In this document: piece by piece, positions 34 through 12,213 of the stretch | How the letters are laid out: each line of letters opens with the position of its first letter | Position numbering within the stretch: position 1 is the first letter of the stretch | Origin: Pseudomonadota bacterium | GTDB lineage: Bacteria > Pseudomonadota > Alphaproteobacteria > Sphingomonadales > Sphingomonadaceae | Length of the DNA stretch: 62,657 nt | NCBI GenBank assembly: GCA_018240895.1 | Contig: JAFEEX010000013.1 | Location: 1-62,657, forward strand | Direction of reading: 5' to 3' | Program-made: the position numbers and the translations under genes | The notes under the pieces: model-generated | The model's input: the letters and a program-made list of their open reading frames with translations, nothing else | Database searches by the model: none | Told to the model about the DNA's origin: nothing

Positions 34-49
34 CGATTCCGGCTCGGCC
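34..49. repeat. att-like direct repeat, left copy (tRNA 3'-end-like)
   Basis: The 16-bp CGATTCCGGCTCGGCC recurs exactly at 7523-7538. It reads like the T-loop, T-stem and acceptor 3' strand of a tRNA gene. It lies about 165 bp before a truncated tyrosine-integrase gene in the same orientation, which is the usual arrangement at the integrase end of a tRNA-targeted island. The parent tRNA is not recognisable in the 33 bases to the left, so the attachment-site role is inferred. Confidence 0.5.
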
Positions 50-215
50 AATACCTCGCTTTGCAATGTCTGTCAGAGGTTGAAAAAACCATAGATTTCC
101 GCTAGTTTATGGACAATCGTCGACTGTCGGTGATTGTCCTTGTCTGCCTGCAATTGCGGTCGATGGGGGCCGATTTGCGGGCCTCGCCGGTCGCCGCAAA
201 ATGCGAGGCCCCCAA

Positions 216-401
216 ATGGCACTGACAGACATAGCGATCCGCAATGCTAAACCGTCGGAGAAGCCTTGCAAGGTCTCCCGCTCCAACGGCCTCTACGTTC
301 TGGTCAACCCGCAGGGCAGCAAGCTCTGGCGCGTGAAATACCGCATGAACGGATCAACAGCTAACCTGCCGTTCGGCACATTGTCGATGAGCGGCAGGTA
401 A
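216..401 (+). pseudogene. Truncated P4-type tyrosine integrase, N-terminal arm-binding domain only
   Basis: About 61 codons starting MALTDIAIRNAKPSEKP match the start of P4-like phage and island integrases (DUF4102 arm-type DNA-binding domain), including the later GLYVLVNPQGSKLWRVKYR stretch. Normal family members are about 400 residues; this one runs into a stop at 399-401 where the arm domain should end, and no core-binding or catalytic domain follows in any frame. An in-frame ATG at 201 exists, but the family start matches the ATG at 216. It is therefore a relic that cannot recombine. Its position beside a tRNA-end repeat suggests it once mobilised the island to its right. Confidence 0.8.
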
Positions 402-576
402 GTCCCAAATCCGATCGGTCGCTTCAACCCACCAGATTGATGAACGAAAGGCGGGTTTCGGGGAACTGATCCTGACCGGCGAGTGTCGGCTATGGCAGCG
501 ATATCCTCCATTCGCCAGCGGGCAATCCTGATCTGACTTCGATGCAACAGCACCTTACCCATCAAGGCAATCGGAT

Positions 577-594
577 TGTGGAACCGGTTTTACA
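577..594. promoter_or_regulatory. Candidate LacI-family operator upstream of the first beta-helix gene
   Basis: TGTGGAACCGGTTTTACA has a perfect AACCGGTT core around the central CG typical of LacI/GalR operators, with TGT/ACA ends. It ends 43 bp before the gene at 638. The reverse complement of 6176-6193, upstream of the TonB receptor gene, matches it at 14 of 18 positions including the first ten. The shared motif suggests one regulator, most simply the LacI-type protein at 6241-7242. Confidence 0.6.
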
Positions 595-637
595 TGCCTA
601 GCAACGGCCCTGCATTGAAGAATGGGAGAGGCGGTTC

Positions 638-2374
638 ATGAAGAAGACTGCAATGTTGCTGGCCGGTGTAGCCAATTTCGTGGTGTCGGTTCCGTTGTTT
701 GCCCAGACCGGAGAGGCGGTTGGTGCCTCGCCTGCGCTCCAGCAGACAACCGAGCTCAAGGCGTTGACGATCGAGCCAGGAATGCTTCCCAAGGCAAGCG
801 ATGGACGCCAGGTAACTCTGACGGTCGATGGAGTGGAACGACAACTGAATGCCGGTTCCTACAAGGGTAATGTGGTCCTTTCGGTAACCGAAGACATCCC
901 AGTCCAATATCACCAACTTCCGGTCCACCACTTCCGCACTGCGCTGTACGTTGAGAACGGCGCACCGGTCCCGGCAAAATCGGTGTCCTCGGCACTGCAG
1001 GGTGCAATGCTGTCCGCAGGGACCGTAACCGATGCCCGGATCACCTCTACCGGCGAACGATTCAACGGGATTATGGTGACGGGCAACGGCAAGTATACGA
1101 TCGACCGCCCGATCATCGACCTGACCGGAAATGGCGGCAACGACTTTGCCGGCTTTGGCGCAGCAATCATGTCGAACGGCCATGCAGACGTAACCGTCAA
1201 CCAGCCAATCATCCGCACCCGCGGGGCGATCCGCACCGCTTTGTTCGTAGGCGGCGACAGCACGATGCACGTCAACGATGCCGAAATCGAGGTAGTCAAC
1301 GGCACTCTCCCCTCCGACTACAAGTTCACGGTCGATGTCGGCAGGATGATGGAGGTGCCGTGGATGCTGGGTCTTTCCGGCAATGTCCGCGCCAGCAATC
1401 TGGTCGATCGCGGCACGCTGTACATTTCGAACTCGCATATCCGCTCACAGGGCTGGGGGGTGCTTTCGACCGACGACAACACGCATGTGCGGATGTTCGT
1501 CGATAACAGCCTGATCGAGGCGGTCGAAGCCGGATACGGAACCTATTCGATCGGAGATTCGGTCAACACCTTCAGTCACAGCGTGATCAAGGCCGCAGAC
1601 ATCGGTGCGATCATGGCGGCTGAGGGTTCGGCGACCTTCACCAATCGCACGTTGGTCTATGCCGGACGCTACGGCGTGATGATGCACTCCGGCGTGGGCG
1701 GCGGCACACTGACCATCGACAAGGGCAGCGAAGTCCATGCCGGACGAACCGCGATCGAAGTCAAGGGCATCGGCACCACGATTCTGGTCGATGATGCCAA
1801 GGTTACCTCTGGCAACGGCATCATCCTCCAGGCGATGGAGAATGACGATCCATTCCTGAAAGCGATGATGAGCGGCAAGATGCCCGAAGGGATGGGTGCG
1901 CCGCCACCGGGCATGAACCCGGATGGCGATCATCCCGGTCCAAAGGGACTGCCGTCCAGCCCGGACGTAAGCGGGACATTCCGGCACGCCTCGCTGACCG
2001 GAGATTTCTTCAATGGCCGCACCGCGCAGGGCGGGATGAAACTGCGGTTTGAAGACACGCAGGTGACAGGCCGGATCACCACCTCCACCGTTGCTCCGGC
2101 TTCGGGCAAGGAGCCGGTCCGCGAAACCTATCAGGAGATCGGGAATGTGACGAATACACCCGCGCCGGCGACGACAGCGAATGGCCTGGCGGTTTCACTC
2201 GACAGGAAGTCGCATTGGACGGTGACGGGGACGTCCTATCTTGCCCGGCTTGAACTTGCTCCCGGGGCGCAGATCGATGCCGGCGCGAGCAAGCTACAAT
2301 TGTTGGTCGATGGCAAGCCCGCGAAGATCAAGGCGGGGGTCTATGCAGGCAAGATCACTCTGCTGGTCAAGTAG
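638..2374 (+). CDS. Secreted right-handed beta-helix protein, paralogue 1
   Basis: This 578-residue protein starts with a Sec signal peptide (MKKTAMLLAGVANFVVSVPLFAQ, here described not matched). The body is rich in Asn, Gly, Thr and short beta strands, as in parallel beta-helix proteins (pectate-lyase-like or autotransporter-passenger folds), but no lyase active site or beta-barrel domain is visible. A module of about 25 residues occurs at both ends: VTLTVDGVERQLNAGSYKG near residue 60 and LQLLVDGKPAKIKAGVYAG at the C-terminus. A Met/Pro-rich loop (around MMSGKMPEGMGAPPPGMN) interrupts the middle. It is a paralogue of the convergent gene at 2465-3904, sharing NDF.G.GA, LP.DYK, GWG.LSTD and GYG.Y. 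The start ATG follows a GGGAGAGG Shine-Dalgarno. The upstream LacI-type operator suggests sugar-responsive control. Substrate is unknown. Confidence 0.7.
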   Translation: MKKTAMLLAGVANFVVSVPLFAQTGEAVGASPALQQTTELKALTIEPGMLPKASDGRQVTLTVDGVERQLNAGSYKGNVVLSVTEDIPVQYHQLPVHHFRTALYVENGAPVPAKSVSSALQGAMLSAGTVTDARITSTGERFNGIMVTGNGKYTIDRPIIDLTGNGGNDFAGFGAAIMSNGHADVTVNQPIIRTRGAIRTALFVGGDSTMHVNDAEIEVVNGTLPSDYKFTVDVGRMMEVPWMLGLSGNVRASNLVDRGTLYISNSHIRSQGWGVLSTDDNTHVRMFVDNSLIEAVEAGYGTYSIGDSVNTFSHSVIKAADIGAIMAAEGSATFTNRTLVYAGRYGVMMHSGVGGGTLTIDKGSEVHAGRTAIEVKGIGTTILVDDAKVTSGNGIILQAMENDDPFLKAMMSGKMPEGMGAPPPGMNPDGDHPGPKGLPSSPDVSGTFRHASLTGDFFNGRTAQGGMKLRFEDTQVTGRITTSTVAPASGKEPVRETYQEIGNVTNTPAPATTANGLAVSLDRKSHWTVTGTSYLARLELAPGAQIDAGASKLQLLVDGKPAKIKAGVYAGKITLLVK

Positions 2375-2392
2375 CCTGCGCTGGCCAAAAGG

Positions 2393-2431
2393 AAGGGCGC
2401 GCCAAACGGGGAGGAAACCCGGCGCGCCCTT
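2393..2431. terminator. Bidirectional hairpin between convergent beta-helix genes
   Basis: AAGGGCGCGCC at 2393-2403 and its exact complement GGCGCGCCCTT at 2421-2431 form an 11-bp stem with a 17-nt loop, 18 bp after the left gene. A second hairpin, CAAGCGGC/GCCGCTTG at 2437-2455, lies next to the right gene's stop codon. Only the minus strand has a short T-run after the first hairpin, so this is a plausible rather than textbook intrinsic terminator. Confidence 0.5.
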
Positions 2432-2464
2432 CGGATCAAGCGGCTTGGCCGCTTGAAACTTCGA

Positions 2465-3904
2465 TTACTTGCGAACAATCTCGATCGTACCGCCCTGCGC
2501 GGCGGTACGAATGCCCGTTGCCAGGCCCGGATCGTTGCTGATGATGGTCACGTAAGCACCAGTTGGCACAATGATCGTATCGAGTCCGGTCCCGGGGACC
2601 AGTGCGACCCGTGAGTTGCCGGAAGCGGTCCAGCGGCTATCGGGATCGGCGCTGAAACGGACATCGCTCAGCTGCCCGGAAAACTGTGCGCCGCTGAGCA
2701 TCAGTTCGGTCGGCCTGTCCGGATCGGTGTCGGTTACGTTGCCCCGATAGGTACCTTTGGAAAGCGCCAGGTGAACCCCCGGTACCACTGCGCCGCGGGT
2801 CTGAGTGGCGTTAGGATCATCGTTCTTGCGCACTTCGAGCAAGGTTCCGGCATCACTCGCCAACTCGCTGGCTTCGACGTTGATTGCCGCATTGGCGCTT
2901 TTGACCAGGAACACAGGCCCTCCGCTGGAAAGCTTGCTGTCCTTGACGGAAAGTCGGCCTTGCTCGGTGGGATCAAAAGCCATCACCGAATGGATCATCA
3001 CGCTGCTGTCTGCCGCACGGCCCGAAGCGGCGTTGAACTGGATCTCAGCCGCACCAGCGATGATTCCCTGGTATGCTCCCGAATCCACCCTCGTACGGTT
3101 GAGCACCACTTTTGCCCCGAAATCAGCATATGCGCCGTAGCCCCGGCCAGTGACCTTGACGATGCAATCGTTGGCTTCAAGGTATAGGTTTCCTCCGGTC
3201 GCATCAGTGGACAATGCTCCCCAGCCAGCGGCTTCGATCTGGCTGTTATAAAGGTAGGTACGCGAATTGCTCATGGCCAATACAGTCCGCGCGGTGCCCT
3301 TGAGGCCAAGTGGTGCAGGCGGTTCGAGCATGCCCGGGCCGATATGGGGCTTGTAGTCAGCCGGCAGTGGCCCGCCGTTTGCCACCAACCGTGAATCGTA
3401 AATACGCAGCGTCGAATTCTCCGCCGCAACTGCAGCAGAGGCGGCCCGTGCCGACGTCTCAATATCAACGTGGTTCAGAACCAGCGCCGCGCTGTCCCGC
3501 ACCATCACACCGGCACCGATGCCGAGGAAGTCATTACTTCCGGGGCCTGCCAACCGTATTTTGCTGTCCGTAAGCGTATAGGCAGAACGGCCGCCAGCGA
3601 CGATCACCCCATTGTAGCTGGACTGGGCTGATTGAATGGTAAGGCTATTCGCAGCGCTTGCGCTGACCTGCAAACCCTTTGCCGTCACGCCGTCTCGGCC
3701 GGCCAGCCTGCCATCGGTAATCGTCAGTGCACTCGCGTATTTGGTCTCTGCCATGCTGGGCATCATCGGCATCGGGCCGGGCGGCATCCCTGCGGGAGGA
3801 GGCCCAGGCGGCATCCCGTCCGGCGGTGGTGCGGGCTGGGCGATCGCCGCTGCAGAGGCAAACAGAAATCCCAGACTGATCAGACGCAGGCGAGCCACAG
3901 GCAC
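2465..3904 (-). CDS. Secreted right-handed beta-helix protein, paralogue 2
   Basis: This 479-residue protein has a clear signal peptide with cleavage expected after AAAIA. The mature N-terminus is a Pro/Met-rich stretch (PPGPPPAGMPPGPMPMMP), followed by about 400 residues of beta-helix-like sequence. Conserved blocks shared with the protein at 638-2374 (SNDFLGIGAGVM, LPADYKPHIG, GWGALSTD, GYGAYADFG) show a duplication. It lies 80 bp downstream of the TonB receptor gene on the same strand and is probably co-transcribed with it, with a hairpin between them. No catalytic motif was recognised. Carbohydrate binding or cleavage would suit the LacI/TonB context, and the Met-rich segment could bind metal; both are inference. 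Confidence 0.7.
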   Translation of the reverse strand: MPVARLRLISLGFLFASAAAIAQPAPPPDGMPPGPPPAGMPPGPMPMMPSMAETKYASALTITDGRLAGRDGVTAKGLQVSASAANSLTIQSAQSSYNGVIVAGGRSAYTLTDSKIRLAGPGSNDFLGIGAGVMVRDSAALVLNHVDIETSARAASAAVAAENSTLRIYDSRLVANGGPLPADYKPHIGPGMLEPPAPLGLKGTARTVLAMSNSRTYLYNSQIEAAGWGALSTDATGGNLYLEANDCIVKVTGRGYGAYADFGAKVVLNRTRVDSGAYQGIIAGAAEIQFNAASGRAADSSVMIHSVMAFDPTEQGRLSVKDSKLSSGGPVFLVKSANAAINVEASELASDAGTLLEVRKNDDPNATQTRGAVVPGVHLALSKGTYRGNVTDTDPDRPTELMLSGAQFSGQLSDVRFSADPDSRWTASGNSRVALVPGTGLDTIIVPTGAYVTIISNDPGLATGIRTAAQGGTIEIVRK

Positions 3905-3948
3905 AAGTCCTTTCCCGCCTTTAGGCGCGAAACAGATTATTCAGGAGT

Positions 3949-3974
3949 GCCCCGCCAGCTTCCGCCAGCGGGGC
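3949..3974. terminator. Intergenic hairpin between TonB receptor and beta-helix gene
   Basis: GCCCCGC (3949-3955) and GCGGGGC (3968-3974) form a 7-bp GC stem with a 12-nt loop. It follows the receptor's stop codon without a T-run, so it may attenuate rather than end transcription or may stabilise the upstream mRNA. Confidence 0.35.
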
Positions 3975-3984
3975 GCATCGGCAA

Positions 3985-6132
3985 TCAGAATTTCACCCCG
4001 GCCGTAACACCATAGGTGCGCGGCGCTTGCAGCTGAACATAGCCGAAGAAGTCCGATTGCTTGACGAACTTGTCGTTCACGTTCTTGACGTAGGCCGTGA
4101 CGGAAATCCTGTCGTTCGCGGAGGTCCAGCCCAGGAACAGGTCCCCGGTCGCATAGCTCTTCTGGGTTGATTCCTCGAGCGCACCGGGCGGCAGGAACGC
4201 AGGCTGTTCACGGGCGAACACCAGTTGTGACGACAGCGCGCGGAAATCGGCACGCGGGGTGAGCGTGCCCAGCCCGCCCAGATCGAAGCTGTGGCTGTAG
4301 CCAGCCTTGAACTGCCAATGCGGCGTGTTGGGGAATGGCATCCCGGCGTAGGAAGATGTCCCCTGGATCTTCGAATCCAGATAGACCATCGATGCGGTGA
4401 ACTTGTCGTGCGCGGTGAGCGCCAACGCCGCTTCGGCTTCCACGCCCCATTCGCGCGCTGGCGGCGTCTTAATATCGACGCAGAAGCCTTGCGAGCACGG
4501 AGCCGCCAACACCAACTGATAGGCGCTGTAATCGTAGTAGAAGGCATCGATGTTGAACAGCATCTTGCCATCAAACAGACGGTTTTTGAGGCCAAGTTCA
4601 AACGACTTCATCTTTTCCGGATTGTAAGGAACACCGGCGCTGGTTGCGAAGCCATAGCCGCCCTGACGGTAGCCACTGGCGACCGTTCCATAGAGCATCG
4701 AATGCGCCGCGGCATCGAATTCAAATCCGGCACGGTAGTCAAAATGGGTGTCCTTCGCCGAAGGAAAGACCCAGATGTTCGACGCCAGTGTGGTGGTGTT
4801 GTCATTGCGGTCGGTCGAGCCGCCGAACTTTTCAGCCGTGACCCGCCCACCTGCGATAATCCGCAGCCCCCGCGCTACTGGTACGGTCACCTGACCGAAC
4901 CCGGCATCGCTGCTCAGCGTGCGGATATCGGGCCCGTAGTGTACCGCATAGGCCGCCGCAACGCAGCGTCCCGGCGGTCCCGGCGAGGGATCGTTGTTGC
5001 TAAAGCCCGCAGCGGGTTGATACAGATTCACCCCGTCAAAGCATGAGCCAGCGATGGTCAGCATCGCGCCTCGGTTATTGTAGTGGTAAAAACCGACATT
5101 CCACTGCACCGGCGAACCGGGTTTTGAACCATAGCGAACTTCAACCGCGAACTGCTTGGTATAGAGCGGATCGTAATTGTTGGCGAAATTGCCGCCGAAC
5201 GAACCGACCACGATGCCCTTGGTGTTTTGGTACGAAGGCTCGATAAACAGTTGCCCCGGCCCGACATCGGCCTTGAGTACGGCCCAGACCTTGTTGTTGG
5301 TCGAATGCTGGAATCCAGCAGACGGATCGGTAGTTACCCGCGATTCAGCGAGGAATGACGCGATCGGCACGGTCCCGGGGCCTTTCCCGCCGAGCGTGGT
5401 GTGTTCAAAACCCAACAGCAGGCTTACCCCGTCGGTCGGCGCAAACAGCAATTTTGCCCGGAATGCGCTCGCCTTGTTATCGTCTCTACCGTTGGAAATG
5501 TAGCCATCGCGGCTGACCCCGGCTGCGGCAACCCGTAGCGCCACCTGATCGCCCAGCGGCAAGTTGATCGCGCCTTCGCCGCGCACGTTTGAATAGTCGC
5601 CAACCTCACCCTGAACATAGCCGCCAAGCTTGCCCAATTCGGGATCGCGCGAAATGACATTGAGCACGCCGCCAACCGCGTTGCGGCCATAAAGCGTGGA
5701 TTGCGGACCGCGTAGCACTTCGATGCGGTCGAGGTCGTAGAATCCGGCAGAGGCAGATTCAGCGCGGGAACTGTAGGCGCCGTCATAGTTGTTCGAAACG
5801 GCACCGGCTCCATTCTGCGGCGGCAAATTCAGGCCAAGACCGCGGATCGACACCAGAAAGCCGCGCGCCGCTCCCTGCACAACCGCGCCGGGGGTATTGG
5901 CAAGGACATCGTCAAGTTTGGAGCGCCCCTCCCGTTGAATTTCTGCGCCATTGACCACTGTCACCGACATCGAGGTTTTCTGGATCGGCTTTTCGACCTT
6001 GTCCGCCGTGACAACGATTTCCGGAACACCGGCCTGCGTGTCCGCAGGCTTCTGGTCTTCGGCCATGGCCGGATGCGCGGCCGCCGCCAGAACAAGTGCC
6101 GCGCTCGATGCGAGCAAGCGATGACGCTTCAT
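3985..6132 (-). CDS. TonB-dependent outer-membrane receptor (island receptor)
   Basis: This 715-residue receptor has a signal peptide ending AHPAMA, a TonB box (PEIVVTADK), a plug domain with IRGLGLN and the RIEVLRGPQSTLYGRNAVGG motif, then a beta-barrel ending in a terminal Phe (TYGVTAGVKF). It imports an unidentified ligand using TonB-ExbBD energy. A strong GGGAGGGGA ribosome-binding site precedes ATG 6132, and a LacI-type operator lies 44 bp further upstream. It is flanked by the LacI-type gene and two secreted beta-helix proteins, a neighbourhood more typical of carbohydrate-uptake loci in sphingomonads and Caulobacter than of iron loci. No Fur box is seen here. The barrel type alone does not identify the ligand. 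Confidence 0.9.
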   Translation of the reverse strand: MKRHRLLASSAALVLAAAAHPAMAEDQKPADTQAGVPEIVVTADKVEKPIQKTSMSVTVVNGAEIQREGRSKLDDVLANTPGAVVQGAARGFLVSIRGLGLNLPPQNGAGAVSNNYDGAYSSRAESASAGFYDLDRIEVLRGPQSTLYGRNAVGGVLNVISRDPELGKLGGYVQGEVGDYSNVRGEGAINLPLGDQVALRVAAAGVSRDGYISNGRDDNKASAFRAKLLFAPTDGVSLLLGFEHTTLGGKGPGTVPIASFLAESRVTTDPSAGFQHSTNNKVWAVLKADVGPGQLFIEPSYQNTKGIVVGSFGGNFANNYDPLYTKQFAVEVRYGSKPGSPVQWNVGFYHYNNRGAMLTIAGSCFDGVNLYQPAAGFSNNDPSPGPPGRCVAAAYAVHYGPDIRTLSSDAGFGQVTVPVARGLRIIAGGRVTAEKFGGSTDRNDNTTTLASNIWVFPSAKDTHFDYRAGFEFDAAAHSMLYGTVASGYRQGGYGFATSAGVPYNPEKMKSFELGLKNRLFDGKMLFNIDAFYYDYSAYQLVLAAPCSQGFCVDIKTPPAREWGVEAEAALALTAHDKFTASMVYLDSKIQGTSSYAGMPFPNTPHWQFKAGYSHSFDLGGLGTLTPRADFRALSSQLVFAREQPAFLPPGALEESTQKSYATGDLFLGWTSANDRISVTAYVKNVNDKFVKQSDFFGYVQLQAPRTYGVTAGVKF

Positions 6133-6175
6133 TTCAGTCCCCTCCCAAAGTTTTGGTTAAGGGTAAGACACCACA

Positions 6176-6193
6176 TGTGGGATCGGTTCCACA
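6176..6193. promoter_or_regulatory. Candidate LacI-family operator upstream of the TonB receptor
   Basis: The 18-bp TGTGGGATCGGTTCCACA is an imperfect palindrome with central CG and GTGG/CCAC arms, 44 bp upstream of the receptor ATG and between it and the LacI-type gene. An overlapping perfect palindrome CCACATGTGG lies at 6171-6180. Its reverse complement closely matches 577-594. Confidence 0.6.
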
Positions 6194-6240
6194 AATCAAT
6201 TATTCGGGCCGATGCCCATCCGTGCGATTGATATGTCGGT

Positions 6241-7242
6241 TCAGTCAGGCGTGCTGCTGGCGCGCACCACCAGATGCCCAGCCAGCCGCGTTGTCCGGGC
6301 CAGCAAGGGATGCCCATCGATTGCCGCAACCAGCCGCGAAACGCAGGAATCGACCACTTCCTTGAGCGGGGTGGCATAAGTCGTCAGGGCGATTGCGGGC
6401 CAGGCTGATGCCTGGGCGTTGTCAAACCCTGCAACGGCCAGATCTCGACCAGGTTTGAAGCCAAGTTCGCGCACCGCCTGAATGCAGGCGATTCCCATCA
6501 GGTCGGTCACGCAAAAAATCGCATCCGGTCGCGGGGTGCCGCCGATCAGCGCCCGGGTCGCTTCGCCCGTGCCTGCGAATGTGTACTGTCCGTTGGCCAA
6601 CAGCGGATAGGGCAGCCCGGCCCGGGCTATTGCTTCAGTGAAAAACCGGGTGCGCTCAACGCTGGCTGAGCTCTCATCGAATCCGTGGATCACCGCCATT
6701 TGACGGCGACCGGTTTCGATGAAGTGTTGGGCGATTGCTTCAGCCCCGGCACGGTTGTCGGTGCAGACACCAGCGATCTCTTCACCCATGTCGATATTGT
6801 TGAGCATGATCACCGGAATTCCGGAATCTGCGCATTCCGTCGCTACTCGCGTAGCAAATGATGTTGAGGCGAGGATCACGCCGTCAAGCCGGAAGCCCAA
6901 TAATTCATCAAGTAGCGGTTCAAGATCGGCCTGGCCGCGGGTCGTAAACAACACCAGTCGGAATCCCGCCAGCGCCAGAGCGTCGGACAGTTCATCGACC
7001 AGTTCTGGATAAAACTGGTTGTCGAGCGCTGTGATGGCCAGTCCAATCAGGTTGGACCTGTTGGTTGAAAGCGATCGCGCAGCCTGATTGGGGCGATAAC
7101 GTAACCGCCGCGCTGCCTCCATGATCTTTTGACGCGCGTCGGGCGCGACGTAACCGCCGTTGTAAGCACGGGATACCGCCGACTTCGAAACGCCCGCCAG
7201 CTTGGCGACGTCGAGCGATGTGGCAGGGCGAAGTTTGTTCAT
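6241..7242 (-). CDS. LacI/GalR-family transcriptional regulator
   Basis: From ATG 7242 the product is 333 residues, the normal LacI-family length. It opens with the helix-turn-helix TSLDVAKLAGVSKSAVSRAYNG, then the hinge region (YRPNQAARSL) and a periplasmic-binding-protein-like sensor domain with DNRAGAEAI and VAGFDNAQASAWP. Such proteins bind a sugar or related effector and repress or activate nearby uptake genes. The frame is open 46 codons further upstream, but that part has no family resemblance, so the internal ATG was chosen although its ribosome-binding site is weak. It ends 108 bp from the TonB receptor gene in the same orientation. Two operator-like sites (577-594, 6176-6193) are probable targets. 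Confidence 0.9.
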   Translation of the reverse strand: MNKLRPATSLDVAKLAGVSKSAVSRAYNGGYVAPDARQKIMEAARRLRYRPNQAARSLSTNRSNLIGLAITALDNQFYPELVDELSDALALAGFRLVLFTTRGQADLEPLLDELLGFRLDGVILASTSFATRVATECADSGIPVIMLNNIDMGEEIAGVCTDNRAGAEAIAQHFIETGRRQMAVIHGFDESSASVERTRFFTEAIARAGLPYPLLANGQYTFAGTGEATRALIGGTPRPDAIFCVTDLMGIACIQAVRELGFKPGRDLAVAGFDNAQASAWPAIALTTYATPLKEVVDSCVSRLVAAIDGHPLLARTTRLAGHLVVRASSTPD

Positions 7243-7552
7243 TGGCCAAGCTGTGACAAGACAACCTACAACTGACAAGGGTTCAGATGAACAGTCGCAC
7301 AGGTCCAAGCAAGCCGTTCTCCTGGTATGTCTGCGGAGATTTGGAGGAACGACCTGCGATTCGAACTTTTTGCTCGCCAAAGATCGTCCAAGAATCTATC
7401 GCGCCCTCGGATTGGGTCCATCTTGGCTTTGCATTGACGAGCTATGGGGGCCCAATTCGGGGCCTTCGCCGGTTTCGAAAAAGATTAAGCCTTTGCTTTT
7501 ATAGCAAAACTTGGGCTTGGTTCGATTCCGGCTCGGCCCAAAACAGTGGGCT
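7243..7552. other. Intergenic stretch with no supported gene
   Basis: No coding region is supported here. The stretch contains a degenerate copy (about 7444-7476) of sequence found just before the integrase relic at 163-194, both beginning ATGGGGGCC, and the right tRNA-end repeat at 7523-7538. It appears to be the right boundary of the first island. Confidence 0.4.
7523..7538. repeat. att-like direct repeat, right copy
   Basis: An exact second copy of the 16-bp repeat at 34-49, here within TTCGATTCCGGCTCGGCCCA (7521-7540), which resembles a tRNA T-arm plus acceptor 3' strand. The sequence to its left does not fold into the rest of a tRNA, as expected for a residual attachment site. It lies 14 bp before tRNA-Thr. 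Confidence 0.5.
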
Positions 7553-7628
7553 GCCGCTTTAGCTCAGTTGGTAGAGCACATCATTCGTAATGATGGGGTC
7601 ACGTGTTCGAGTCACGTAAGCGGCACCA
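7553..7628 (+). tRNA. tRNA-Thr (anticodon CGT)
   Basis: A complete 76-nt cloverleaf: acceptor GCCGCTT pairs with AAGCGGC, D-arm GCTC/GAGC, anticodon stem CATCA/TGATG with loop TTCGTAA, T-arm GTGTTCGAGTCAC region, and an encoded ACCA end. Anticodon CGT reads ACG (Thr). Its 3' part from 7584 on is duplicated at 8785-8833, marking it as an integration target. Confidence 0.95.
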
Positions 7629-7632
7629 CTGC
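7584..7632. repeat. 49-bp direct repeat in tRNA-Thr, left copy
   Basis: The sequence from the anticodon loop of tRNA-Thr through CCA plus CTGC recurs without mismatch at 8785-8833. A perfect repeat of a tRNA 3' part flanking a foreign-looking segment is the signature of site-specific integration into that tRNA gene. Confidence 0.85.
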
Positions 7633-7799
7633 CTTCAAAGATAAAATTGGAAATTTTGAATAAGGGCGCTTTCGCTTGATTAAATTTGTGCATTTTGTAC
7701 TATAGTGTTTTTATGAATTTTATCGCTTCTTGCCCGCGACTCACCTATTTGATAGAAAATTATATAGAACTACTTATCAGTTCAAATTTAGATCAGAAA

Positions 7800-8474
7800 T
7801 TATTTGACCTCAACAGACTCGAGGCCCCAGGGTTTCGGCTTACGGGCCTCTGGTTGCTGGCTGTATGCAACCTGTGAAGTGTTGTGGGCAGTGGCAACCG
7901 GAAGCGGAGCCGAGGTTGCGCGCTGAGCGGCAAACCTGACGGGCAAGTCATTCTTGGTATGAACCAGCAATTCACGACCCTGAGGGATAACGCCGCTTCG
8001 ACCGGTTATAAAGCCTGCAAAAACGCCAGCGAGTACAACGCCGCCGACGGTCGCAACCGTGTTTCCTTCGCCTTCCTGGCGAAAATGCCCCTCAAGAGGT
8101 ATGCGCCTGCCTCCGACCTCGACATATTCAACACTGACTTCCATCTTGCCGGATTTGCCGAACGCGCCTTTGCTGGTCAGCCAGTTCACCCGACCGATAG
8201 CGCGCGATCCACGGGGAATGATGATCCGATCCTCCAGAAATACATCTTGTACGACTGTCAGCGCAAATGTGTCACCTTCGTGAAGCGAGTTTCCTTTGGT
8301 GGTGAGTGTTTGATTTACTGAAAGCACTACCTCGGTATTGGCGGGTAATACCTTGGCGAACGCGATGTCAGAAGGGGCCACGATCATAGCGGCATTAGCG
8401 GGTGCATCTTGCGCATGTCCAATGCTGGGGATGATCAAGAACGCTGTAGTGATGGCGATTGACGCGCGTTTCAT
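7800..8474 (-). CDS. Secreted protein of unknown function
   Basis: A 224-residue protein with a signal peptide ending IGHA|QDA. The central part (VLPANTEVVLSVNQTL, EGDTFALTV, IIPRGSRAIGRV, GKSGKMEV, RIPLEGHFRQEGEGNT) has the look of a small beta-rich domain, followed by a Gly/Val hydrophobic segment (VGGVVLAGVFAGFITG) that may be a membrane or glycine-zipper helix, and a polar tail. I do not recall a family name; the IPRGSR phrase slightly resembles the VirB10/TrbI C-terminal domain, but the length does not fit. An AGGAG site precedes the ATG. It is the main cargo of the tRNA-Thr insertion. An upstream small frame ends in an ATGA overlap with it. Confidence 0.65.
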   Translation of the reverse strand: MKRASIAITTAFLIIPSIGHAQDAPANAAMIVAPSDIAFAKVLPANTEVVLSVNQTLTTKGNSLHEGDTFALTVVQDVFLEDRIIIPRGSRAIGRVNWLTSKGAFGKSGKMEVSVEYVEVGGRRIPLEGHFRQEGEGNTVATVGGVVLAGVFAGFITGRSGVIPQGRELLVHTKNDLPVRFAAQRATSAPLPVATAHNTSQVAYSQQPEARKPKPWGLESVEVK

Positions 8475-8761
8475 AAAAATTCTCCTCTTGCAATCATGTG
8501 ATTGCCCTCAGAGTTCTTAAGGACATGAGTGACATCATTGGTTGACAGCTCGTTAATAGCTTTTCCAGCGCCCCGCGTGGTCATCGGGTTATCCGGCATT
8601 TTCTCGAATTTCTTGGTTGGAGCAGGGCATTCTTTCAAATTTCGCCCCGCCATAGTGATTTCTGTGGAACGGAGCATCACGTACGCATATCGCAACTTGT
8701 GGTTGGCTCGGACAAAAACCACTTGCACCGAATTCCGCGCTAGGCCCGTACGAATCCTCAT
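8471..8761 (-). CDS. Small hypothetical protein, possibly truncated
   Basis: A 96-codon frame whose stop overlaps the start of the next gene by four bases (ATGA), as in translationally coupled genes. It has no recognised domain, no clear ribosome-binding site, and its start lies 24 bp from the right 49-bp repeat, so its true N-terminus may have been lost. The overlap is the only positive evidence. Confidence 0.25.
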   Translation of the reverse strand: MRIRTGLARNSVQVVFVRANHKLRYAYVMLRSTEITMAGRNLKECPAPTKKFEKMPDNPMTTRGAGKAINELSTNDVTHVLKNSEGNHMIARGEFL

Positions 8762-8784
8762 GTTAGGGGCGCAATCTCTCTACT

Positions 8785-8833
8785 TTCGTAATGATGGGGT
8801 CACGTGTTCGAGTCACGTAAGCGGCACCACTGC
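8785..8833. repeat. 49-bp direct repeat of tRNA-Thr 3' part, right copy
   Basis: Identical to 7584-7632. It covers the 3' side of the anticodon arm, the T-arm, the acceptor and CCA, with no 5' half, so it is not a functional tRNA. It overlaps the start of the downstream TonB receptor gene, encoding codons 1-10 of that frame. Confidence 0.85.
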
Positions 8834-10843
8834 TTGTTCCTGGGCACCGCCGCCGGGTTTGCCTTGCTGTTCGCGCCGCGGGCTGCCTGGGCGGATGAGC
8901 AGCCGGCGCAGCCGATCGTTGTTACCGGGTTGCCGCTTGATCCGCCTGTGTCGGCCACCGCTTATGACCAGCAGGTGATTGATGCGCAGCGCTTGCGGTC
9001 AAGTGCGTCGGGGCGGATTGAGGATGCGCTTTCGGCGGTGGCCGGGTTTCAGCAGTTCCGCCGATCAGACAGCCGGTCAGCCAATCCGACGTCGCAGGGG
9101 GTAACCTTGCGGGCGCTTGGCGGCAATGCGTCAAGCCGCAGTCTGGTTCTGCTTGATGGCGTGCCGATGGCCGATCCCTTCTTTGGACACATCCCGCTTT
9201 CGGCGCTCGCGCCTGAACGGCTGGTGCGGGCGCGAGTGACGCGCGGCGGCGGGTCCGGGGCGTTTGGCGCCGGCGCGGTTGCCGGAACGATCGAGCTTGA
9301 CAGTGCGGGCGCTGGTGATCTTGGCCTGTTTGAAGGCGCGGTCATGGCTGACGATCGCGGAGAAACGGCGCTGTCCGGATCGCTGGCCCCGCGGCTTGGC
9401 AGCGGCTTTGCGGTTGCCTCGGCACGGTGGGACAGGGGGCAGGGTTTCTGGACCACGCCGGCCAGTCAGCGTGTCGCCGCCTCAGCGCGGGCGCGGTATG
9501 AAAGCTGGTCGGCAAGTCTGCGCGGGGTCGCGCCCCTGACTTCGGAAATCGAATTGCAGGCGCGCGCGCTGGTCTATGATGATCATCGCACCTTGCGGTT
9601 CAGCGGTGCGGATTCGTCCAGCAGCGGGCAGGACGCCAGCCTGCGTCTGGTCGGGCGCGGAGCTTGGCGGTTTGAGCTGCTCGGTTACATCCAGGCGCGT
9701 GACTATTCGAATGTTGTGATCAGCGCGACCAACTTCAAAAAGACGCTGGATCAGCGCGCCACCCCGTCAACCGGCTGGGGCGGCAAGGCGGAACTGCGGC
9801 CGCCGGTGGGCGGCGCGCATGCGCTGCGCGTGGGGGCCGATTGGCGCGGCGCGGACGGCACGATGTATGAGGATGCCTACAGCACGGTGACGGGCCGCAT
9901 CACGGCGCGGCGCAATGCCGGCGGGCGCAACGCCGATCTGGGCTTTTATGCTGATGACGACTGGACGATCGGCGCGCTGACCCTGACCGGCGGGGCACGG
10001 GCTGACCGGTGGTCGATCACCGATGGCCACTTTCACGAGGCGAACGCCGCGGGCGCGGTTACCATCGACAATCGCTTTGCGGACCGCAATGGCTGGGCGG
10101 CCAGCTTTCGCGGCGGCGCTCTGCTTGCGCTGGGGCGCGGGCTGACGCTGCGCGGATCGGCCTATTCCGGGCTGCGGCAACCCACGCTTAACGAGCTTTA
10201 CCGCCCCTTCACGGTGTTTCCGGTCTCCACCCGGGCGAATGCGGCGCTGGGCAATGAGCGGCTGGTCGGGTTCGAAGCCGGGTTCGATTTCGCCCCCGGT
10301 GATGCGTTCCGGATCAGCCTGACCGGGTTTGACAATCAGGTCCGCCACGCCATCGCCAATGTCACCATCGCCACCAACCTGCGCGAAAGGCGCAACGTTG
10401 ATGCGATCCGCGCGCGCGGGCTTGAGCTGGGCGCGATGGCGCGGCTCGGACCGGTACGGTTCGACGGATCGCTGGCCTGGACCGATTCAAAAGTGCGGGC
10501 GAGCGGCGCTTCGCTGGCGCTGGATGGCAAGCGTCCGGCACAAACGCCGCGCCTTGCCGCCAGTGCGACCCTGGCCTGGCAGCCGCGCGATGGCTGGCGG
10601 GTGGCCACCACGGTCAAGCACACCGGTATGCAGTATGAGGATGACCTGCAAGTTGATGTGCTTGCCGCCGCGACCACGCTTGATGCCTTTGTCGAGGTGC
10701 CGCTGCGCACAGGGGTAAGCCTGCTGCTGCGCGGTGAGAACCTGACCGATACCGATGTTGTCACCCGCAATGTCGCCGGCTCGATCGATCTGGGTACGCC
10801 GCGGACGCTGTGGGCCGGATTGCGCGTTGCCCTGCCGCGCTGA
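8804..10843 (+). CDS. TonB-dependent receptor with tRNA-derived 5' end
   Basis: This 679-residue receptor has a TonB box (QPIVVTGLP), a plug domain with GVTLRALGGNASSRSLVLLDGVPM and a barrel ending in RTLWAGLRVALPR, without the usual terminal Phe. The only plausible start is GTG 8804, inside the 49-bp tRNA-Thr repeat. The first ten codons (MFESRKRHHC) are tRNA sequence, yet they give a basic n-region that joins a hydrophobic core and an AWA|DEQ cleavage site, so a working signal peptide results. GGGG from the tRNA variable loop sits 4 bp before GTG. TTG 8834 is an alternative start. Receptor class resembles BtuB/CirA-type proteins; the ligand is unknown. A class II aldolase-like gene follows 40 bp later. 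Confidence 0.85.
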   Translation: MFESRKRHHCLFLGTAAGFALLFAPRAAWADEQPAQPIVVTGLPLDPPVSATAYDQQVIDAQRLRSSASGRIEDALSAVAGFQQFRRSDSRSANPTSQGVTLRALGGNASSRSLVLLDGVPMADPFFGHIPLSALAPERLVRARVTRGGGSGAFGAGAVAGTIELDSAGAGDLGLFEGAVMADDRGETALSGSLAPRLGSGFAVASARWDRGQGFWTTPASQRVAASARARYESWSASLRGVAPLTSEIELQARALVYDDHRTLRFSGADSSSSGQDASLRLVGRGAWRFELLGYIQARDYSNVVISATNFKKTLDQRATPSTGWGGKAELRPPVGGAHALRVGADWRGADGTMYEDAYSTVTGRITARRNAGGRNADLGFYADDDWTIGALTLTGGARADRWSITDGHFHEANAAGAVTIDNRFADRNGWAASFRGGALLALGRGLTLRGSAYSGLRQPTLNELYRPFTVFPVSTRANAALGNERLVGFEAGFDFAPGDAFRISLTGFDNQVRHAIANVTIATNLRERRNVDAIRARGLELGAMARLGPVRFDGSLAWTDSKVRASGASLALDGKRPAQTPRLAASATLAWQPRDGWRVATTVKHTGMQYEDDLQVDVLAAATTLDAFVEVPLRTGVSLLLRGENLTDTDVVTRNVAGSIDLGTPRTLWAGLRVALPR

Positions 10844-10883
10844 TGCGCTAAACTGGTTGCAAATCGGAACCGGAGAGAACCCC

Positions 10884-11657
10884 ATGGCAACCCAGATCAA
10901 CGCGCACAGCCGCAATGTCGATTGTACCGAAGCCGAATGGCAGGCCCGGCTGGAGCTGGCCGCCTGCTACCGCGTGTTCGATCACCTTGGCTGGTCCGAA
11001 TCGATCTACAACCACATCTCGGCCAAAGTGCCGGGGGAGGAAGGCGCCTTCCTGATCAACCCCTTCGGGCTGCTCTATTCAGAGGTTTGCGCATCAAACC
11101 TGGTCAAGATCGATATTGACGGCAATTCGCTGGATGGCAGCCCCTATCCGGTCAACAAGGCCGGGTTTGTGCAGCATTCCTATTTCCACCGCCATGTTCC
11201 CTGGGCCCATGCCATCGTCCACACCCACACTACCGCGACCATGGCGGTGTGCAGTCTGGAAGGCGGGTTGCAGCCGGTGAATTTCTATGCCTGCAACTTC
11301 GCCGGGCGGCTGGCCTATCATGATTTTGAAGGCATCACGGTCCGCGCCGAAGAGGGTGAGCGGCTGCTGGCCAACCTGGGCGACAAGCGCGTCCTGATGC
11401 TGAAGAACCATGGACCGGTAATCCTTGGCCGTTCGATCCCCGAAGTGTTCATCCAGCACTGGGCGCTGCAACGCGCCTGCGAAGTGCAGATGGCGACTCT
11501 TTCGATGGGCAAGCCGATCGTGGTTCCCGATGAGGTGGTTGCGGTTCACCATCGCGATCTGCACGAAGGCGGGGTGCCCGGGCGTCAGCCCGGCCAGGCC
11601 GATTTCGATGCCTGGGTGCGCCGGATAGACAAGATCGATCGGTCATGGCGGGATTGA
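10884..11657 (+). CDS. Class II aldolase/adducin-family protein
   Basis: From ATG 10884, preceded by GGAGAG, the product is 257 residues. It shows the class II aldolase fold: an early YNHISAKVPG segment, a GLLYSEVCASNLVKID segment, the zinc-ligand motif VHTHTT near residue 112 and a further conserved KNHGPVILG block. Members include fuculose-phosphate aldolase and ribulose-phosphate epimerase, but many, like this one, are larger and uncharacterised. The metal-binding histidines are present, so activity is plausible; the substrate cannot be told. It is followed 13 bp later by an iron-sulfur subunit gene in the same direction and probably shares its transcript. Confidence 0.85.
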   Translation: MATQINAHSRNVDCTEAEWQARLELAACYRVFDHLGWSESIYNHISAKVPGEEGAFLINPFGLLYSEVCASNLVKIDIDGNSLDGSPYPVNKAGFVQHSYFHRHVPWAHAIVHTHTTATMAVCSLEGGLQPVNFYACNFAGRLAYHDFEGITVRAEEGERLLANLGDKRVLMLKNHGPVILGRSIPEVFIQHWALQRACEVQMATLSMGKPIVVPDEVVAVHHRDLHEGGVPGRQPGQADFDAWVRRIDKIDRSWRD

Positions 11658-11670
11658 TACCCTTCAACCC

Positions 11671-12213
11671 ATGACCAGTCTGACCGTTAACGACCGCGCG
11701 GTCGATTTCCAGCTCGATCCGCAGACCCCCTTGCTGTGGGCGCTGCGCGATGCAGCCAACCTTACCGGCACCAAATACGGCTGCGGGGTGGGGGATTGCG
11801 GTGCCTGCATGGTGCTGGTCGATGGGCAGGCGCTGCGTTCATGCCTGATTACCCTGGCCGAGGCCGAGGGGCGCAGTGTAACCACGGTTGAGGGATTGTC
11901 GGCCGATCGCTCTCACCCGGTGCAACAGGCTCTGGTGGCCGAGCAGGCGATCCAGTGCGGGTTCTGCACGCCGGGCATCGTCATGTCCGCCGCCGCCCTG
12001 CTGGCGCGCAATGCCGATCCCACTGCGGAGGACATCAAGGCGGCAGTCCCCAACCTGTGCCGCTGCGGGGTTTATCCCCGGCTGGTCCGCGCGATCCAGC
12101 GGGCCGGACGAGTGGCCCGCCGGATTGAAACGATCAGCGCCGCGCCGGCCCCGGGGATCACCCCCCAAGACGCGGCGCGTGCGGTTCCGGCGATGAAGCC
12201 GGTGGATCGTTAG
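11671..12213 (+). CDS. [2Fe-2S] subunit of a molybdenum hydroxylase (IorA/CoxS type), orphan
   Basis: The 180-residue protein has a plant-type [2Fe-2S] domain (GCGVGDCGAC, then a later Cys) and a second all-alpha [2Fe-2S] domain (QCGFCTPG and NLCRCGVYPR), the standard pair of xanthine-oxidase-family small subunits such as isoquinoline 1-oxidoreductase alpha. This subunit carries electrons from a molybdopterin catalytic subunit. No molybdopterin or FAD subunit gene is present on either side, which is unusual, since they are normally the next genes. A tail of about 35 residues follows the second domain. It probably pairs with a large subunit encoded elsewhere, or the operon has been broken. Confidence 0.9.
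   Translation: MTSLTVNDRAVDFQLDPQTPLLWALRDAANLTGTKYGCGVGDCGACMVLVDGQALRSCLITLAEAEGRSVTTVEGLSADRSHPVQQALVAEQAIQCGFCTPGIVMSAAALLARNADPTAEDIKAAVPNLCRCGVYPRLVRAIQRAGRVARRIETISAAPAPGITPQDAARAVPAMKPVDR

Follow-up and report, generated by a model that had tools for sequence, protein, structure and literature searches.

What do two paralogous proteins of predicted beta-helix fold, here called BH1 and BH2, contribute beside a TonB-dependent receptor and a LacI-family regulator, and how did these four genes come to lie at the left end of a Sphingomonadaceae contig? The window analysed here is the whole of contig C9 (JAFEEX010000013.1, 62,657 nt) from a 3.17-Mb, 104-contig assembly that is 89% complete and to which all genome-wide counts of palindromes and of a 16-bp repeat refer; this genome is also numbered G000, and relative genomes and loci carry G- and L-numbers. 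Sphingomonads have numerous TonB receptors, few of them with a known substrate. We conclude that the locus is a real, rare and mobile uptake unit. With about even confidence, we propose a model whereby it is a LacI-repressed regulon for uptake that comprises two transcription units, would have arrived on a composite island at a tRNA-Cys gene and would take up an aromatic compound or its glycoside, with BH1 and BH2 staying in the periplasm.

The four genes are those that a first-pass annotation had listed. The LacI-family regulator (6241–7242, minus strand) matches PF00356 (E 1.4e-11) and PF13377 (Peripla_BP_3, E 2.9e-23), and the receptor (3985–6132, minus strand) has both barrel and plug (PF00593, E 7.8e-32; PF07715, E 5e-18). 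BH1 (638–2374, plus strand, 578 residues) and BH2 (2465–3904, minus strand, 479 residues) are convergent; both have a signal peptide, and BH2 also a proline-rich linker, as judged by eye. The two are paralogues (hhalign E 2.2e-49), in line with the duplicated pair described earlier. Searches of Pfam and of curated families likewise recognised no lyase or sugar enzyme among the four genes, as had been said from the open reading frames (ORFs).

That the four genes act as one unit, also put forward in the first-pass annotation, gains from operator-like sites and from co-occurrence in five of 15 related loci, and from their sequences the genes look like one regulon. Two LacI-type operator-like palindromes, TGTGGAACCGGTTTTACA (577–594) and TGTGGGATCGGTTCCACA (6176–6193), each lie 43 bp before a start, the first that of BH1 and the second that of the receptor. 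Within three mismatches TGTGGAACCGGTTCCACA occurs at five places in the assembly, and within two only at 577–594 and 6176–6193; the reversed-pattern control gave four per strand within three mismatches. A 14-base motif, TGGGANCGRTTGCA, is exact in L028 (twice, before the receptor and before BH1), L030, L032 (twice), L035 and L040 (twice), and is present with one mismatch in L030 and L034, making ten sites in six LacI-bearing sphingomonad loci that precede the likely starts of LacI or a major facilitator superfamily (MFS) carrier, of the receptor or of BH1. Two of these sites, the one in L034 and one of those in L032, lie within the longest ORF that can be drawn, yet ahead of the likely start. 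The receptor site of the window departs from TGGGANCGRTTGCA by one mismatch, and none of eight loci without LacI holds the motif within that limit. Twenty mononucleotide shuffles of the same six loci gave zero to two sites each, a control that serves as a guide only because TGGGANCGRTTGCA was picked by eye from the very loci scored.

In our model, a composite integrative island would have brought the regulon to tRNA-Cys, and BH1 alone and the receptor with BH2 would form its two transcription units. LacI may bind the central-CG palindrome ahead of both BH1 and the receptor gene, releasing it once an imported inducer is present. The receptor would pull an aromatic compound or its glycoside across the outer membrane, and BH1 and BH2 would leave the cytoplasm by the Sec route and most likely stay periplasmic, where the ligand could bind along a polar helix face and be held, or possibly processed, ahead of inner-membrane crossing.

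Support for a functional link between the four genes also comes from relatives, which were collected in one scan of 84,980 species genomes with two peptide patterns only, so that distant ones may be missed. The 15 BH1 loci found are from Novosphingobium, metagenome-assembled genomes of Sphingomonadales and of a proteobacterium, Alteromonadaceae, Parahaliea, Aestuariibacter, Dyella, Ideonella and Nitrospirillum, and several are cut off at contig ends. All four genes occur together in L028, L030, L032, L034 and L035; within the examined stretches a receptor homologue is present in 13 of the 15 loci, LacI in seven and BH2 in six. An MFS carrier stands between the receptor and a divergent LacI gene in L030, L032, L034 and L035, and a short-chain dehydrogenase/reductase (SDR) adjoins the carrier in L021, L022 and L024 (protein families were tested for L022, which is the same locus as L032). 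At the window locus carrier and SDR are missing and BH1 is inverted relative to its relatives. BH1 is rare: it occurs in six of 149 genus genomes, ours included, in two of 298 at family level (ours and one weak match, E 4.8e-4), in one of 398 at phylum level (ours alone) and in one of 72,556 plasmid records. That plasmid locus, L103 on p1 of Novosphingobium sp. ES2-1, shares 98.6% identity with L028 across 21.7 kb and is not independent. In the open-licence literature no paper describing such a locus was found by title or opening of the abstract, where absence is little proof. Separate phylogenetic origins of the four genes had been named as evidence that would speak against a single unit, and the result is divided: when identity matrices are compared across six loci, those of BH1, BH2 and LacI correspond (r 0.88–0.95), and the history of the TonB receptor is partly separate. 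The L035 receptor is of a different lineage from the receptors of L030, L032 and L034, and receptors seem, from these sequence comparisons, to have been exchanged. In N. olei (L034) the cluster lies at 2942–12070 between tRNA-Gly(TCC) and tRNA-Thr(CGT), and no tRNA-end repeat is among the repeats listed there. We also note that the TonB receptor of this locus is split over two frames.

As to the substrate, the best fit is an aromatic compound or its glycoside, a suggestion made with low confidence from the genes that surround the relatives, some of which adjoin aromatic-catabolism genes or alpha-L-rhamnosidases. The surroundings of L028 and L103 include FAD monooxygenases, VOC/glyoxalase-dioxygenase proteins, SDRs, a LysR regulator and an NAD-dependent epimerase family protein. 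Near L022 are a carboxylesterase, a sulfatase, an FAD monooxygenase and a below-cut-off relative of D-erythronate dehydrogenase; among the proteins of L021 is one of the tannase family, and L041 has an ACMSD-like amidohydrolase and an FAH protein. In L037 one GH78 and two GH106 genes adjoin BH1, and L042 has similar ORFs. GH106 is found in all six BH1-bearing genus genomes and in 68 of the 143 others (p 0.013, without kinship correction). A more specific assignment, an L-fucose/L-rhamnose diketo-hydrolase pathway in L041 and L029, was rejected, both FAH proteins being nearer to other FAHs than to rhamnonate hydrolase 8gsr and the L041 amidohydrolase being ACMSD-like. Matches of SDRs and epimerases lacked specificity or fell short of the cut-off. 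In L037 and L039, the loci of Parahaliea and Nitrospirillum, SnoaL_4 proteins turn up again in the vicinity of BH1, together with EF-hand-like ORFs.

Predicted structures of BH1 and BH2 are right-handed beta-helices that most resemble autotransporter passengers, with short strands continuing to the C-terminus. The Pfam Beta_helix matches are weak (25.6 and 18.2 bits against a cut-off of 25.9), and BH1 met no credible counterpart in a sequence search of the PDB (best E 0.022). The paralogues have 39 columns in common, 15 of them polar or aromatic and several about one coil apart. Where would these proteins reside? The first-pass annotation called them secreted, which is doubtful beyond what the signal peptides show. 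Beta_helix was their sole Pfam match at E ≤ 1, with no autotransporter barrel or two-partner secretion domain, and in four of the six BH1-bearing genus genomes, ours among them, no type II secretin scores above the curated cut-off (completeness is 89% for our genome and given as 100% for G002, G098 and G102). Type II export is therefore not a general feature of BH1-bearing genomes, and on the same count the periplasm is favoured as the most likely place of BH1 and BH2.

Several observations weigh against the regulon and the parts assigned within it, besides the by-eye choice of TGGGANCGRTTGCA. LacI is absent from eight of the 15 related loci and BH2 from nine, some of them contig-cut, and the identity matrix of the receptor agrees poorly with the others (r 0.35–0.49). 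L039 has a LacI gene, yet no TGGGANCGRTTGCA within one mismatch, and the window's site before BH1 conforms to the palindrome, not to the half-motif. The four-gene stretch is without an inner-membrane transporter or known enzyme. The neighbours vary between relatives and may serve other pathways, and our own GH106 gene lies on another contig beside an isomerase-like, aldolase-SDR, kinase and MFS set, which we read as rhamnose catabolism. G145 and G067 do carry an over-cut-off type II secretin, and weaker matches below the cut-off occur in all six BH1-bearing genomes. Finally, the beta-helix fold equally suits adhesins, enzymes and chaperones.

The last point bears on the rival that survives best, namely an enzymatic role, in which BH1 and BH2 would form a new family of lyases, glycosidases or esterases built on a beta-helix scaffold and would cut a glycan or glycoside in the periplasm. 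We regard this as possible if doubtful: the fold would allow it, and neither protein matches a curated enzyme family, those of beta-helix polysaccharide lyases and of GH28-type enzymes included. A surface role, in which the two capture a ligand and pass it to the TonB receptor as HxuA does to HxuC, would sit well with the passenger-like models and is unlikely, given the lack of a barrel or two-partner secretion domain and the four genomes without an over-cut-off secretin. That the four genes are chance neighbours on a decaying island, as the integrase stub described below, the inverted BH1 and the missing carrier and SDR might suggest, is very improbable in the face of four open reading frames, the co-occurrence, the common operator-like sites and the agreeing divergence of BH1, BH2 and LacI. 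Returning to the regulon with periplasmic beta-helices, we tentatively suggest, as a proposal that could well prove wrong, that BH1 and BH2 represent a new class of TonB-receptor partners: periplasmic, barrel-less passenger-type beta-helices that would take a ligand from the receptor along a polar ladder of the helix and hold or convert it, and that may have passed by horizontal transfer among alpha-, beta- and gammaproteobacteria, as a module fitting different receptors and catabolic pathways.

How does such a locus relate to known systems? The best reading is that it is a variant of a CUT locus in which beta-helix proteins replace the known enzyme. In CUT loci of Xanthomonas and aquatic proteobacteria, as in the window, a TonB receptor and a LacI-family regulator share one small locus; the sux locus of Xanthomonas comprises the TonB receptor SuxA, the transporter SuxC, the amylosucrase SuxB and the LacI/GalR-like repressor SuxR (PMC1790865). 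Relatives L030, L032, L034 and L035 add an MFS carrier to the likeness. Set against these, the window has the receptor and the linked regulator, no inner-membrane transporter among the gene calls of 34–7540, no enzyme family found among its genes by family searches, and two paralogous beta-helix proteins instead. BH1 and BH2 are like the autotransporter passengers pertactin, Vag8 and UpaB in the right-handed beta-helix of their predicted models; unlike type Va autotransporters, they have a signal peptide only, without a barrel domain, and are linked to an uptake receptor. HxuA is a beta-helix protein too. In the haem uptake system HxuCBA (PMC4873976) it works alongside an outer-membrane receptor; unlike there, BH1 and BH2 have no two-partner secretion domain that we found, and two paralogues are present. 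Together with its own regulator, a pair of defined operator-like sites and two conserved soluble partners, the receptor makes a small testable unit, and through it a beta-helix family without an assigned job gains a place in a pathway.

The arrival of the locus can be traced at its right side. The first-pass annotation took 34–7540 as one island bounded by a 16-bp direct repeat, which is indeed exact at 34–49 and 7523–7538 and, by 15-mer and 16-mer searches, occurs at these two places only in our assembly. On the scale of the 7.5 kb such a repeat is unusual, with some repeated 16-mer arising in one of 100 first-order Markov shuffles; shuffling all 62.6 kb gave one in 24 of 30 cases, so that the length of the repeat alone is little proof and its position counts instead. 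In G008 and G004 an RNase-II-like gene, tRNA-Cys(GCA), tRNA-Thr(CGT) and a homologue of the second TonB receptor of the window (8834–10843) are contiguous, as are the first three in G013. Before its own tRNA-Thr(CGT) (7553–7628, plus strand), which starts the conserved chromosome, the window has GGTTCGATTCCGGCTCGGCC, the tRNA-Cys 3' end minus one G, followed by a spacer resembling that of G008. From this gene order and this match, 7519–7538 (plus strand) is a relic of the tRNA-Cys 3' end and the right boundary of the island. The repeat was thus rightly called tRNA-end-like as regards its right copy, although neither copy lies inside a tRNA gene found by ARAGORN, and the neighbourhood of tRNA-Cys and tRNA-Thr in relatives settles its origin; our own tmRNA, also considered as the source, lacks the 16-mer. 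A mobile origin at a tRNA end is borne out by this relic and by the empty site in G008 and G004, both of which, the duplicated tRNA 3' end as well as the empty site, concern the right boundary only.

The single island bounded by the two repeats found no support. The intact tRNA-Cys of the genome is on contig C27 (5725–5798, minus strand), flanked 5' by the RNase-II-like gene and 3' by an integrase C-terminal end (read by eye), a prohead-protease fragment, a DUF4011/MTES_1575 helicase-nuclease ORF pair and the contig end. The island is therefore probably composite and larger than 34–7540, reaching from C27 into C9 with unassembled sequence between, and the left repeat copy (34–49, plus strand) seems internal to it. 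Together with an integrase stub 166 bp further on, this copy seems to mark where a second element, stacked in the same target, begins. The stub is the truncated P4-type integrase seen earlier (216–401, plus strand, stop at 399–401), in which 216–398 matches the N-terminal arm DNA-binding domain alone (PF13356, E 2.1e-11); no relatives of it were found in the set of relative loci searched for it. Islands with P4-type integrases at tRNA 3' ends are a known kind, and ours is like them in its tRNA-Cys target, the 3'-end relic at the boundary and the integrase remnants; unlike them it is composite and degraded, and only integrase fragments, this stub and the C-terminal relic beside tRNA-Cys on C27, are seen in the assembled sequence. 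The C27 element beside tRNA-Cys (L087, 1–5724), probably in the same island, appears phage-like and perhaps defence-related. Relatives with the four genes at the same locus and without repeats or integrase had been named as evidence against the island, and half of this was found: five carry all four genes with no 16-mer at up to one mismatch in the stretches examined, and none of the five lies near tRNA-Cys, but N. olei has tRNA-Thr(CGT) next to its cluster. The 16-mer, at up to one mismatch, is absent from all 21 relative stretches examined.

Elsewhere in the genus the 16-mer is present in 13 of 149 genomes, ours included, and no tRNA was found at any of the 12 other sites. Five of these have GC-rich flanks, and seven (L045, L046, L049, L051, L053, L055 and L056) are AT-rich on the left, where the sequence closes with aatt, gatt, tatt or gttt; the latter, one G short of tRNA-Cys in the exact form searched for, are perhaps ends of a family of elements.

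Base 1 of the window is a contig end, beyond which the left-hand sequence lies outside our view. Bases 1–24 are common to the starts of contigs C79, C7 and C14, which points to an insertion sequence there, and judged from this repeat they are likely the end of an unassembled one. To the right of the island, a 49-bp perfect repeat absent from the first-pass annotation (7584–7632, in the 3' half of tRNA-Thr(CGT), and 8785–8833) bounds a separate 1.2-kb insertion at tRNA-Thr (7633–8833), which is missing in G008 and G004 and holds a 224-residue ORF without a Pfam family.
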